From the NCBI GenBank assembly GCA_003415625.1, contig PYIU01000007.1, positions 2,046,001-2,110,000 of the forward strand: DNA of 64,000 nucleotides. The letters are read 5' to 3'. A program made the translations under genes and the position numbers. This stretch comes from Aquanectria penicillioides (Eukaryota > Ascomycota > Sordariomycetes > Hypocreales > Nectriaceae). Positions 41,826 to 56,490 of the stretch are shown here, in pieces. The notes under the pieces were generated by a model. That model had not been told where the DNA came from, made no database searches, and worked only from the letters and a program-made list of their open reading frames with translations. Each line of letters begins with the position of its first letter. Positions within the stretch are counted from its first letter, which is position 1.

Positions 41826-43259
<1,434 letters not shown>

Positions 43260-43869: not shown

Positions 43870-46335
43870 ATGCAAACCCAATCTTGTTCCCCGAAGACTC
43901 CTTGGAACGCCATCGACATGAATACTGAAACTAGCAACACCCCTGATTCTGGGTACGGCTCAGCTGAAGGCACTCCTGAGATTCCACGAGCCTCAAAACA
44001 AACAAAAATATCTCAAGTAAATGGGCCCGATTACATTGATGATACGGACCATTCAAATGGGATGCCAAAACCAGAATCGCCATGTCCTAAATCACAAATG
44101 TCCCCGGGAACAGCATCCATGGCGAGCCAGACTATGGTTACCTGGGAAATGAATGCACCGCTCCGTTCCCTTTGCGGTCCATGGTCGATCCCTATCTCTC
44201 TTAAAAAGAAACATTTCAACAGAAATAGACGGCCAATTGACCGATACGTTCCAAGCAGAGTTTCACTATCACCGTATTCGGAAAGATATCAAACTACGAA
44301 AAAGCTACAACACCTTTCGTCACAAGAGAAGCTTTTGAGGAATAACTTGGCGTCCCTGGATCCATTTTACTCACAACATCCTGCGGTCCTAGAGCAGCAT
44401 TCAACTCAACTTGATGGTCGGTCTCTCGATAGCAGCGTGCGTCTTGATTTTTGCCTAGACTCTTGGCTAACATTTCACATTGGCAAGTTCAGTCCATATT
44501 CCACCGCTGCAGAATCATGTAACCTTGCGACAAGCGAGCCAAGGGGCAGTTTGGTCTGTTGGTGGTTTGCCTTCAGGCGCAATTCGCATTGACCATGGAC
44601 GAGCCCGTTTAGTGCGGCGGAGCCCAAACATTCGAGTTTTCTCTTCTTCGTTCCACGCCACTGACTCAATGGCGCAAGATGAGACAGACAAGCATGAGAG
44701 TCGCCTTGCTATCGCGTTAGACATCGACAGAGTCCGCCGAATTTTTGACTTTGACCAAAGAGTACCATTTCCGCGAAACCCCTTGGCCAGGGGCAACATC
44801 CAACTCGAAAATCAGTGTCAAACAGTTTGGAATGGGTGTCGATGGGAAAATGAAGAGAGAGACTTGGGTACGAATGGTGAAGTATATATAATATTATATT
44901 GCTAACCGCAAACAACTTAGCTGCTCCAAGTCCTTTGATAAAGCGCAACATTCCCACTGCGCCATTCAGGTAAAGCCGGCATCATATCAGAAACAAGGAG
45001 TAAGCCTTTCTTACATATCTCAGGGTTCTTGATGCACCAAACTTGAAGGATGACTTTTACTGTTCTCCTCTAGCTTATTCACCAACATCCAATACTTTGG
45101 CTGTTTGTCTCGGACCTGTTGTGTACGCCTGGGCAGAGGATACTGGTGTGCATATGATGCATGGGGCTCACTCAGAAGCGTCTCTGACTTCCGTTGCCTT
45201 CTCATCGGCACAAGGTGCAAAGGCCATCCTTGGCATTGGTCAATCAGACGGTTCTATTATTCTCAGGTCAGTATACGACGCATTGCCTCGCTTTGAAGTG
45301 CAGCAGCCACTCCCAATTGCATGCATGAGCTAGCGTCCTGTATGTATTGTGCGTCCATCCAAGAACCCGCTTAACCCCGGCGTTCTTGTGCAAAACGAGG
45401 ACCTACTCGTGGGTGATGAGGTAGGGACTATGTATTATTACCTGGTAGAGTGGCCAATGGGTTGGGAAGTCTCAAGGGATACTTGGCCTGGGGTGGTATC
45501 ACTTGTGGCCAAAATATCTATCCATCATCAGCAAATATGTGGCCTTGCTTGGGCACCTGATGGGAAGCTCTTTGCGTCTGGAGGCAATGACAACCTTTGC
45601 TGCCTCTTCGAGGTCGACCGCGTTCTTGGGCAAGGTCAAAACCACCATCTCAACATAAATGTGGAAGTGGAAGAAGCTGAGACCTCTATCCATAACCCAA
45701 CGGTACCAGCGTCTAATCCAAAGGTTATGTCGAGTGTTGCAGAAGCCGAGCCCTTTCCAGCCTTGGCTAAAAGTCTCCGTCGTCTTGGGACTGGAACGGA
45801 ACGGCATCGCTGGATTCATAGTGCTGCAGTAAAAGCGATAGCTTTCTGTCCATGGCGACGCGGTTTGGTCGCAACCGGAGGCGGCTCTAACGATAAGTGC
45901 ATCCATTTCTTCCACACTTCCACCGGCGCAACCCTGGCTACCATATCTGTCTCAGCCCAGGTAACCTCGCTGATCTGGTCCACAAATCGGCGGGAAATCG
46001 CTGCCACATTCGGGTATGCTCAACCAGAACATCCATACCGAATTGCTATCTTCAGTTGGCCCGGTTGCAAGCAAGTAGCAGCCATTCCCTAGGAAAGGGA
46101 GCTGCGAGCACTTTATGCCATCCCATATCCGAGAGGTCCTAGGGGCAACAAAACTCATAAGGGTCGGACTATCCAAGAGGGTTGTCTTGTCGTTGCATCT
46201 AGCGATAAAAGCGTGAAGTTTCACGAAATATGGTCGCATGAGAAGCGGGGAACTGCAGGAAGCACAGTTGCTTTGAGTGGGACCCGTACTTCTGACACTC
46301 TAGAAGGGGTCAATCAAGAATATGTCATTCGTTGA
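43870..46335 (+). CDS. AMA1: Meiotic APC/C activator AMA1-like, with two in-frame TAG codons
   Basis: AMA1 is a Cdc20/Cdh1-type WD40 activator that directs the anaphase-promoting complex in meiosis and sporulation. Exons 43870-44436, 44513-44867, 44921-44969 and 45024-46335 (introns of 76, 53 and 54 nt) give 761 codons. The C-box DRYVPSR lies at residues 124-130. WD40 repeats start near residue 320 (DDFYCSPLAYSPTSNTLAV, QICGLAWAPDGKLFASGG, AVKAIAFCPWRRGL, CLVVASSDKSVKFHE). The C-terminus ends VIR, the APC-binding IR tail. Codons 427 (45331-45333) and 680 (46090-46092) are TAG where I expect Trp in relatives (CMS-W-RPVC and AIP-W-E). The frame is otherwise unbroken and well conserved on both sides, which argues against a decayed pseudogene and fits UAG-to-UGG RNA editing. 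Unedited mRNA would give a 426-residue fragment lacking most of the propeller. Confidence 0.92.
45321..45347 (+). promoter_or_regulatory. Predicted RNA hairpin around first TAG of AMA1
   Basis: ATGCAT at 45321-45326 can pair with ATGTAT at 45342-45347: six pairs, one of them G-U. The TAG at 45331-45333 falls in the 15-nt loop. The base before the A is U, the preferred neighbour for fungal A-to-I editing. The stem is short, so alone it is modest evidence. Confidence 0.45.
46078..46105 (+). promoter_or_regulatory. Predicted RNA hairpin around second TAG of AMA1
   Basis: GCAGC at 46078-46082 pairs with GCTGC at 46101-46105. TCCC at 46086-46089 pairs with GGGA at 46097-46100. Only a 3-nt bulge (46083-46085) separates the stems on one side. 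The apical loop of seven bases (46090-46096) begins with the TAG. This is a compact nine-pair hairpin presenting UAG in its loop. Confidence 0.6.
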
Positions 46336-46659: not shown

Positions 46660-47516
46660 CTACTTCAAGATAGCAATGAGTAGCACCAAAATGATGATCA
46701 ACACTACAATAGTAGTCATCTGCTTGTTCTCGCTAGCACCGCGAGCGACTTTACCCAGTGTTCGGCTAGCCCTGTCAAGACGGCTCTGATGACGATCAGT
46801 CACACCTTCGACCTCATCTAACATGGCAACATGGCTATCCAGTTCATCGCCAATCTGCATGCTCAACTCTCTTTGGCGACTGATAGACTCGCCTAGGCGG
46901 TCAAGCTGTTCGTCTTGTTGCTCTAGAATATGCGAGTGGTACTCGTGGATTTGTTGATTCGACATGGCCTCGGCCCCATCCCGGTAGCCAGCCGAGTCAA
47001 TAGGATCATCGCGGTAGGGGCCAAAAAGCACCTCTGACGGAGAGGCAGGCGTATCGCTAAAGCGTACGGTCTTCGATTTACGGCCGGAGGGTGAGGTCGA
47101 GATAGCATGGGCAAAGTCTTCCGAAAGAGCATCCGAGTTGGGTTGGGTGAGAGTAGCTGTGGCTGAGGGATTGGCAAGGCCATGGAACTGGGCCGTCAAA
47201 TTATCGAACTGCTTATGGAGCGCTTCCAGGGACTCGGTGAGGGCTGAGGCGGCGCTTCTGGTAGATTAGCTTGTGAAAAACTGAAAGAGCCAGTATGTGC
47301 CTCGGGGATGGAAACGCCGTACGTTACGTCCCCATCATTATTCAAGCGGGATTGCTCTTCGAGACTGGCGAGCCCGTCACGAAATTGATCAAGAGATCTA
47401 GAGATGTGGCCATCCTGAGTATCATCTTCAAGGTTTAGTGTCTGCGCACGTTTCCGCTCGAGAAGAGACAGTTTAATATGGTCGGAGAGCAAGAGCAACT
47501 GGCTGGAGGTCGACAT
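46660..47516 (-). CDS. Endosomal Qc-SNARE, Syn8-like
   Basis: This is a tail-anchored SNARE that drives fusion at endosomes. Exons 47516-47323 and 47257-46660 (65-nt intron, donor GTACGG) give 263 residues. The N-terminus SQLLLLSDHIKLSLLERKRA is typical of fungal Syn8/syntaxin-8. The middle is Ser/Pro-rich. The SNARE motif covers about 180-240 (HILEQQDEQLDRLGESISRQ, HVAMLDEVEGVTDRHQSRLD) with the central Gln of a Q-SNARE. The last 20 residues form a single hydrophobic anchor (TTIVVLIIILVLLIAIL) with almost no lumenal tail. A competing donor, GTAACG, lies seven bases upstream, but only GTACGG keeps frame. Confidence 0.88.
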
Positions 47517-48710
47517 GGTAGATGATTAATGTTATGGCGATCAAATCAGCGGATGGAAATTGATACAAGCCACCGACACCGCCACGAAGGACGAGCCGCT
47601 GGATGAAGAGATAGGGACCAAGGGTGCTAGAAGGTGGGCGTAGTTGATAAGAGTGTCGGGCTACAGGTGTGACAGCTGGCTTGACCTGAAGGAAGTGATG
47701 CTAATGCGAGGTGGATGTTCGTTGATGGTTACCTACCTTATGGCAACACGAGTCAGCCAGTGCAATCCAAGGGGGATGCGACGCGCTCAGTGGCCCTAGC
47801 CCCGGCTGATAGGGACTCAGGTACATGGGACATTGTGCAACGTATTCCGTCCCCAATCAGCCGATTGGAAGGATGTTCTCAGGTACCTCGTACAACAGTG
47901 CGAATATGACTTTGGCCCAATATTACTCTGGCAGACGATATTGACCCGTGACACTGTATAAGTAGGTACATGTGATTCCGATGCATCACCCGCCTAGGTA
48001 CCTACTCAGCCGAGAGCCAATACCTTCGTTCTTACCAAGTCACTCAACTGCTGACCTCAATAACCTCCACGATCTGGCTAATCGCACCTTCTGTGCCAGT
48101 CCACTGCCAGCCCGTGCAAAGATTCGGTCTAGAGTGGTCTACCTTTTACTCGGGGACAGCGAGCGGCACCTGCTTTTCATTATGCGTTTCCCAGCCCCGA
48201 GATAAGCATCACGACCGAATTGCCCAATGACCCCCTCTTGGCTTCCCTTCCGTTTTAGTGGCAGTGTTGGGGGATTCAGAGAGGCATCTCATCAGATCAG
48301 GGGCTGGTGTAGATGGTCCCGTGAGACCCATAAGCATATGCCTCAGGACCAGTGGGATATGGAACGGGTTGAAACCAACCATTAGTCAACTAGTGATTCG
48401 CTTCTCAGTTGGAGCGTGTTTTGTTTTTACAACATGGAATTGCATTGCGAAGCATTAAGTGCATGATTTTCAAGGTCTTTCAAGACCGGATACCGACGAG
48501 GAACCCAAAGATATGTAGATGATACATGGTCATGACGAAGACTCCATGTTCAAGACGTTTTGCCTGTTGTTAAATTCCCAACCCCATGATACCGAAATCC
48601 TTACAATCCACCTTCCCCAACCAGTCCTCCTAAGCATGGCAAGCTCACAAAACTCCAGTAACAACCAATAGCAAATAATTTTGTTCGAAATCGGTTCATT
48701 CGAGGAATAT
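47517..48710. other. Intergenic of 1.2 kb
   Basis: 5' flank of Syn8 and 3' flank of the next minus-strand gene. A CCTAGGTACCTAC element sits at 47993-48005. No supported gene. Confidence 0.5.
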
Positions 48711-54083: not shown

Positions 54084-56490
54084 ATGAACGGGGACCTGAG
54101 CCTTTCTCAGGCCCTAGGTGGGCTTCGCATTGCCAACCCTGACGATGCTGCGGAGACCTCTGCACTCGCACCTGCATCTACCACAGTTACCGAACCCCCC
54201 TCTGGCCCCCAGGGCGCAATGGAGTCTTTCGCCAGCACTATTCAACTCGAGCCCATCGATGCCGGCGTCGAACCCACACTTACCGATCCCCGACTCGCCC
54301 CGCCTACCTGGCGATCCGATGTGACTCCAGAACCGACCGTCACCGAGACCTTCCAGCAATCTTCTCACACCGACATGTCGAGATTGTCCATATACGGCCT
54401 GCCAAATATTCCCGAGCCCGGATTATCCTATTCACCCCAAGACCCGATCCAGAGAGACCCCCAGCCAATCTACAACCCGAATCGTCAAGCACCCCTCCCC
54501 CCCGAAGGAGTTCCAGAGGCATGGGAGGTGGCTACGTTCCCAACGCGGGAGCAACCCAATCTAGTTCTCCATATGCTGGCGACGCGCCAATGCCATCCAG
54601 TAGCGAGGACTGGAAGGACCGCGGTGCTGCTGTCGGCGTTCGTCGCGAGGTTGACGCATCTGGCCGCACGGTTGTCCGGCAAGTCAAAAAGGGTGTTCGC
54701 GACTTTAATTTCGGACGTGTACTCGGTGAGGGCTCTTATAGTAGCGTATACCTCGCTACTGATCGCCAAACCCTCAAAGAATATGCCATCAAGGTACTTG
54801 AAAAGAGACACATCATCAAAGAGAAGAAGATAAAATACGTCAACATCGAGAAGAACACACTCAATCGCCTCACAGAACACCCTGGCATTGTCCGGCTCTA
54901 CTACACATTTCAGGATGAGACGTCGCTCTATTATGTGCTTGACCTTTGCAACGGCGGTGAACTGTTAGGAGTGCTAAAGAAAACAGGCACATTTGACATC
55001 GAATGCACGAGATTCTATGGGGCCCAGATTCTCGACGCCATTGACTACATGCACTCGCGGGGTGTGATTCATCGCGATCTGAAACCAGAAAATGTGCTCC
55101 TTGATGACCAGATGCATATTAAGATAACGGACTTCGGAACCGCCAAGTTACTCAAAGATCCTCGGGAGGCCAGGAGCCAAGATCCAACAGACCGAGGGGC
55201 ACCTGATCCAGGCCGACAAGACGGCGAAGAGGATGATCGGGCAGCTTCCTTTGTAGGAACAGCAGAGTACGTGAGCCCTGAGCTCCTCACACACAAAAAT
55301 GCCTGCAAGGCTAGTGATTTGTGGGCGTTTGGGTGCATAATTTATCAGTTGCTTGCTGGACGGCCCCCATTCAAGGGAGGCAGCGAATACTTGACGTTTC
55401 AGAAGATCGTCAATCTAGAGTATGAGTTTCCCCAAGGTTTCCCTCCCGCGGCGCGAGATCTAGTGGAACGGTGCCTTGTTCTTGATCCAACCCGGCGCCT
55501 TACTATTGAGCACATAAAGAACCACGAATTCTTCGATGGCCAAGCATTCGGTAAAGGACTGTGGAGGGCAAAGGCACCGAGACTACGCCCATACATCCCA
55601 CCGCAACAGGAGCCTACTGTTATTCAGCTGAATGGCTTCTCTACCACGTCCAAACCCATCTCGAACTCAAGAGCTCCCCCACCGCAAAACAACCCTTCCA
55701 ACGGAAGCAGTCGACCGGCGCGGATTATCACTGAGTTACCTCCTCCTACACAATTGGATATTGCATGGTCGCCTGTTCTCACAAGAACGAACGAGCGCAT
55801 CCTTAAACTAGGGGATCTTATGGTCGTCTCAACCCCATTGCCGTCAAGCCCGCATGGCAAAGGCTCAGACGAAGGGCACAAGAAACTGTCACGATTCTTT
55901 GGTGGCAGTACAACAAAAAAGCGCCAGCGGCTAGTGATGATCACCTCGAGTGGTCGTATCGTACTAGCTCCAGCAGGCGGGGAAGAAAAGCGAGCAAAGC
56001 AAGAAATATCACTCATGGCACAGGATTGCTCGTGGAGAACACAAAAAGACGCCAAAGGTCAAATTGTGTGGTGTGTGGATACAGTTAGTCTCAATTATTC
56101 TCCTCTTTTGTCTGCTAAATTCCCTAACATCACTGTCAATAGGGCGGACATCACTACACTTTTGAAGAAACAAAGTCCTCACCACCTCTCCCCGAAGGGG
56201 GATCATCTGCAGCAGCTGAATGGGTTGAGTGTTTAGAACGCGCTAGAGACCTTGCCATGTCCCAAAGCATCCCTGCTGGCGATAATGGGTTTGCGGATAT
56301 GTCATCTACGGTGTCAAGCCCAGCGAGTACACTTGGAGGCCCGGGGAACTTCTCTGATGGGTTCGGCGGAGGTGATCGACAGGCCCGCAATCATCTAAGC
56401 AAAATTCAAGGGGGTGTTGAAGATCCGGCGCCTAAGCGAAATCGCTTCAGCAAGAGACAGTCAAGAAGTGGACTGGGGTCCGCATTTTGA
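54084..56490 (+). CDS. PDK1-like kinase PKH, with one-base frameshift
   Basis: A master AGC-kinase activator of the PDK1/Pkh family, linking sphingolipid signals to Ypk/Sch9 kinases. Exons 54084-56083 and 56143-56490 (59-nt intron). A disordered N-terminus of about 200 residues precedes the kinase domain: GEGSYSSV loop, YAIKVLEK lysine, IHRDLKPENVLL, DFGTAKLL and the activation loop SFVGTAEYVSPELL. A PH-like C-terminal domain runs to the end GLGSAF. At 54497-54503 the C run has seven bases; eight are needed to pass from the N-terminal frame (NPNRQAPLPP) into RRSSRGMGGGY and the kinase. With that base, exon 1 is exactly 667 codons and the protein 782 residues. Ignoring the intron would end at 56236 with an unrelated tail; spliced, the PH-like region continues. 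Confidence 0.93.

Follow-up and report, generated by a model that had tools for sequence, protein, structure and literature searches.

Two in-frame TAG codons at conserved tryptophan positions of an AMA1 orthologue in Aquanectria penicillioides, candidates for A-to-I RNA editing

We analysed a window of 64,000 nucleotides from the Aquanectria penicillioides genome (contig PYIU01000007.1, positions 2,046,001 to 2,110,000). Coordinates below are those of the window unless a contig is named. An orthologue of AMA1 lies on the plus strand at 43870..46335, recognised by its homologues, its single copy and a spliced open frame that contains two TAG codons. Upstream of it on the same strand is an open stretch of a GH18 gene (42171..43259), and two open stretches of a gene encoding a SNARE domain lie downstream on the minus strand (46660..47525). 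The GH18 neighbour is 59% identical over 311 positions to its counterpart in F. langsethiae, for which one public gene model joins GH18 and AMA1. The joined model is probably a false fusion that reveals a conserved gene order. Elsewhere on the plus strand (54143-56236), an open stretch of 697 codons belongs to a protein kinase gene that ranks with the strongest kinase matches genome-wide.

Splicing three short introns out of 43870-46335 produces a frame that ends in Ile-Arg and a stop codon and is interrupted internally only twice, each time by TAG. The exons are 43870-44440 (or -44436), 44493 (or 44513)-44867, 44921-44969 and 45024-46335. Intron 2 occupies 44868..44920, for which 44877-44920 is likewise frame-preserving, and intron 3 occupies 44970..45023. 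For intron 1, 44441..44492 is favoured because the segment it retains aligns with relatives. It gives 769 codons, with TAG 1 at codon 435 and TAG 2 at codon 688, and these numbers are used throughout. The alternative intron 1, 44437-44512, gives 761 codons with the TAGs at 427 and 680, and reproduces the frame described in a first-pass annotation of this DNA. That annotation had reported no other stop or lesion, in agreement with the spliced frame. The DNA positions of TAG 1 (45331..45333) and TAG 2 (46090..46092) are identical under either choice.

The predicted protein contains a CDC20/Fizzy-type WD40 propeller, the motif DRYVPSR (44239..44259; family consensus DRxVPxR), which we take to be the C-box, and a C-terminal IR tail (46327..46332; the translation ends ...VIR). 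The 252-residue piece between the two stops matches PF24807 with an E value of 1.6e-41 and 143 bits, against a whole-protein cut-off of 200. This family profile also matches the Slp1, Cdc20 and Cdh1 chains. The window gene has a single match location in the genome of 53.8 Mb. The Neonectria AMA1 protein is 75% identical to this gene versus 37-44% at weaker matches elsewhere, which look like CDC20/CDH1 paralogues. Among the matches listed, the nearest proteins are from Neonectria, Ilyonectria, Dactylonectria and Mariannaea, and some listed relatives are annotated as meiosis-specific APC/C activators. These comparisons, and the GH18 neighbour shared with F. langsethiae, identify the window gene as an orthologue of AMA1, rather than a CDC20/CDH1 paralogue. 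The motifs, the WD40 match and the Neonectria identity also bear out the earlier description of an AMA1 homologue running from C-box to IR tail.

Both stops are located at Trp columns, as the first-pass annotation had proposed for the family. We compared 161 relatives from two protein searches, comprising 120 listed of 358 matches and 41 more from 120 listed of 243. The TAG 1 column is Trp in all 156 relatives that cover it and the TAG 2 column in all 129. Trp is the majority residue in 13 of the 376 core columns of the alignment. The residues flanking both stops had also been described as conserved, and this was confirmed in the 120 listed relatives (of 358 matches). For invariant columns covered by at least 90 of these, the window protein keeps 21/21 before TAG 1, 61/61 between the stops and 12/13 after TAG 2. 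For 95%-conserved columns, it keeps 55/57, 91/94 and 24/30, respectively. The last value is below those of 16 of the 17 compared relatives covering the stretch (Mariannaea 25/30; Thelonectria has 21/30). In a rapidly built tree of 54 rows, the window gene has a terminal branch of 0.25 versus a median of 0.031; isolated rows with similar branches are Thelonectria (0.22), Stachybotrys (0.22) and Tolypocladium (0.28). Retention of 61/61 and 12/13 invariant residues past the stops is not what neutral decay would lead one to expect, and the gene is therefore no old pseudogene. Together with a branch length near those of isolated rows, the retained residues indicate that the stretches after the stops were selected until recently, or still are.

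Two explanations would make the stops recent or artificial. The first, the main rival to editing, is a loss of function in a lineage or isolate whose sexual cycle is no longer completed, with recent nonsense mutations in AMA1, a recent frameshift in the editing factor gene AME1 (see below), and AMA1 left unrestored. The weaker conservation after TAG 2 is in its favor. However, both stops are TGG to TAG changes at invariant Trp codons, and no other lesion is found. Such changes make up 12.6% of the one-step nonsense opportunities in AMA1 when transitions are weighted 4x, and 20.8% when only transitions are counted, which puts the chance that a random pair of stops is entirely of this type at about 2-4%. 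The second explanation is an assembly or sequencing error at both TAG sites. The case is known here from the assembled sequence alone, and the frameshift in AME1 could be an error as well, but two substitutions both yielding TAG at invariant Trp codons would be needed, and we regard this explanation as highly improbable.

TGG to TAG is a RIP-type change. RIP was considered as the origin of the stops and rejected, because the gene is single-copy and its indices are similar to those of the window (TpA/ApT 0.64 versus 0.68; (CpA+TpG)/(ApC+GpT) 1.39 versus 1.28). An ancient RIP event is a possible source.

Stops that are edited leave traces in gene models. Models of CHE1 are truncated at the stop, begin downstream of it or bridge it with a false intron (PMC11169179). 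For AMA1, such traces were read from the database protein models of the 161 relatives rather than from their DNA. Seven models stop short of query residue 760, and 152 have IR at their C-terminus. Six of the seven end exactly before a Trp column. Those of F. heterosporum, F. acuminatum, F. austroafricanum, Fusarium sp. DS 682 and Cosmosporella sp. end directly before column 688, the position of TAG 2, which argues against the loss-of-function explanation. The Fusarium nematophilum model ends exactly before Trp column 609, a candidate for a further stop site. The seventh, from Ilyonectria robusta, has an unrelated end. Column 688 is absent in 32 relatives and the adjoining columns in 25 and 24. 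On the 54-row tree, direct stops account for 5 changes, or 10 with gaps counted as stops; these counts are soft, as 21 of the 51 inner branches are weak.

A second region of interest is located near column 385. This column is absent in 26 of the 161 relatives, 21 of them named Fusarium, within a broad plateau of missing columns (about 366-385 over all relatives). The F. graminearum models retain Trp 368 and lack 380-407 or more. This suggests that the known stop in F. graminearum AMA1 (FgAMA1) is near column 385, a position read from the skipped gene models only. At the TAG 1 column, no direct stop is found among the 161 relatives; five lack the column, within broad gaps, and the gaps around columns 461-479 do not centre on any Trp. 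The candidate stop columns are thus 435 and 688 in A. penicillioides, with 688 shared by at least five more species, 609 in F. nematophilum and about 385 in many Fusarium. Judged by these models, AMA1 seems to have acquired stops at its Trp codons repeatedly. In addition, the models of Hypoxylon, Daldinia and their kin skip the stretch around column 688, suggesting either a stop or a real intron in Hypoxylaceae.

The sequence context of the two stops was compared with the bases preferred at six positions flanking an edited A (PMC9600606). Both candidate adenosines (45332 and 46091) are preceded by U, consistent with the earlier point that U is favoured there. TAG 1 has four of the six preferred bases and TAG 2 has all six. 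A 6/6 context is also found at 2 of the 16 TGG codons in AMA1. The residue following the TAG 2 Trp is Glu in 90 relatives, which places G-A-purine at +2 to +4, so the context is favourable by way of the encoded residues.

A preference for hairpin loops had also been put forward, and it holds for short flanks but mostly fails for flanks of 60 nt or more. When 15-40 nt per side are folded, both adenosines are in the loops of weak predicted local hairpins (45314..45349 for TAG 1 and 46075..46105 for TAG 2, plus strand). With flanks of 60, 100 and 150 nt, the sampled loop probabilities are 0.80, 0.16 and 0.47 for TAG 1 and 0.13, 0.10 and 0.06 for TAG 2. Compared to shuffled sequences, the hairpins are not clearly more stable (z of 0.26 and -1.29, respectively). 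Among the 88 UA sites of the AMA1 coding sequence, 13 reach a loop probability of 0.95 at 30 nt flanks and 34 are in hairpin loops in the minimum free energy fold. The predicted loops are weak support for editing.

In F. graminearum, mRNA editing requires Tad2-Tad3 and Ame1, and a Met-Val at Ame1 positions 500-501 is described as a key change in Sordariomycetes (PMC11087585). The Tad2-Tad3-Ame1 complex is said to edit mRNA in yeasts (PMC11087585). DUF726, the domain of Ame1, matches at three places in the A. penicillioides genome. One of them, on the minus strand of contig C9 at about 2140844-2142928, is assigned as the AME1 orthologue by its DUF726 match, its 71% identity to a Neonectria protein over the whole query and its Met-Val, which in the alignment corresponds to position 500 in the protein from F. 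culmorum. Met-Val is found in 98 of the 113 homologues covering the column (116 aligned; one of 117 listed was left out). Eight matches to the deaminase family are present, among which Tad2 and Tad3 are not distinguishable.

In this assembly, the AME1 orthologue is shifted out of frame by one base within a short homopolymer. It keeps 74/74 conserved columns before the frameshift and 30/31 after it. As controls, 21 hand-picked neighbouring kinase matches are all at least 45 nt apart, as expected of introns. The closest neighbouring HSP70 and chaperonin matches are 20-38 nt apart with profile overlap, still compatible with introns. In none of the three control families do neighbouring matches share DNA positions in the way seen for the AME1 pair, so the frameshift is not typical of the assembly, a point in favor of the loss of function described above. 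The frameshift may be a single assembly error, or the isolate may be unable to edit. If it is real, the isolate may not edit, and AMA1 would stay off. On the other side, the mating-type locus (contig C8, 2229600-2239500) belongs to the MAT1-1 type, and the frames of MAT1-1-1 and MAT1-1-2 are open. An HMG-box fragment beside these two genes scores just under the cut-off. Weighing these points, we consider loss of function in a non-editing isolate unlikely.

Other genes were examined for similar stops. SPO22 and the rid orthologue (PMC4817773), and also PAL1, are reported as edited in F. graminearum. Within the main domain matches of these three genes in our genome, no stop is found, and a second edited gene was not found among them. 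SPO22 has a second match, 41 positions long, whose three stops are consistent with an intron. In a kinase survey for PUK1, 141 matches were obtained by scoring 123 of 264 candidates; many contain stops, at least partly from introns read through, and PUK1 was not distinguishable among the scored matches. Within the window, same-frame open stretches split by one stop number 17, of which two are the AMA1 TAGs and 15 are other cases.

Full-length protein could also be made by splicing or by readthrough. Stage-specific splicing that removes stops is reported for FgBUD14, alongside editing (PMC11156358). In AMA1, frame-keeping GT-AG spans of 45-160 nt that would excise TAG 1 (9 spans) or TAG 2 (18 spans) are present. 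However, the stretches they would excise are conserved, and both sites are Trp rather than linker, so we give splicing very little weight. Ordinary translational readthrough of both UAG codons would likewise result in some full-length protein. It leaves the Trp at both stop columns unexplained, and two events per message would presumably yield little product. We consider it scarcely credible.

A-to-I editing of both UAG codons is probably the explanation of the AMA1 stops, and the most likely one. It is favored because of the Trp columns, the residues kept beyond the stops, the relatives whose models end at column 688, the UA context, the weak local hairpin loops, the presence of AME1 and the precedent of FgAMA1. 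Evidence against it includes the AME1 frameshift, the loss of the hairpins in wider folds, the lower conservation after TAG 2 and the lack of a direct stop at TAG 1 in relatives. The first-pass annotation had proposed the stops as candidates for sexual-stage editing; the F. graminearum precedent and the five relatives ending at the same Trp strengthen this reading, whereas the frameshift in the assembled AME1 weakens it. In the proposed mechanism, the genomic AMA1 would be an off allele, whose two UAGs cut translation short within the WD40 propeller. As fruiting bodies develop, Ame1 would redirect the Tad2-Tad3 adenosine deaminase to mRNA. At both sites UAG would be converted to UIG and read as UGG, encoding Trp, and the edited message would produce full-length Ama1 for ascospore formation. 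We infer, rather than observe, that editing takes place, at which stage it does so and that it serves as a stage lock.

Comparison with known systems indicates that the first-pass annotation overstated the novelty of the case, since editing of the AMA1 stop is already published in F. graminearum. FGRRES_10728, the AMA1 orthologue, is one of 69 additional genes in which UAG is edited to UGG (PMC4817773). FgAMA1 has been individually characterised, and its editing is important for ascospores (PMC11156358, PMC9600606); it is also treated in PMC12582100, PMC9499528 and PMC11050156. The window gene is orthologous to one in which an in-frame UAG is predicted or shown to be edited to UGG (PMC4817773, PMC11156358, PMC9600606). 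Unlike FgAMA1, with its stop inferred near column 385, it has two, at columns 435 and 688. Two stops in a single gene are also known from PUK1 of F. graminearum; in the N. crassa and F. verticillioides orthologues, one or other of these stops is retained (PMC4817773). The PUK1 stops are tandem codons in a kinase, whereas those of the window AMA1 are 253 codons apart in a WD40 protein. CHE1 is similar in having a conserved UAG at a Trp and distorted gene models there, but it is a zinc-finger gene and is edited in hyphae (PMC11169179). The mechanism, the gene and the paired stops are therefore not new in kind. What seems new is the species, the two stop positions and the pattern of stops at several AMA1 Trp codons. 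Among the papers listed in our literature searches on AMA1 stops, fungal stop editing and its machinery, none was recognised as describing this multi-Trp pattern, which may nevertheless be published.

If editing is confirmed, AMA1 stop editing would also be known from a lineage separate from Fusarium, where it would act on two sites of the gene together. More tentatively, and with slightly less than even chances in our view, AMA1 may be a repeated target for editable stops, acquired at different conserved Trp codons in separate Sordariomycete lineages. The models shortened or falsely spliced at AMA1 in many genomes are a warning about automated annotation. Mapping which Trp is a stop in each species would distinguish a selected stage lock from a neutral pile-up after editing arose. 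If the repeated-target reading is true, a meiosis gene locked by stops and unlocked by editing would be a convergently selected switch, not a drifted dependence.
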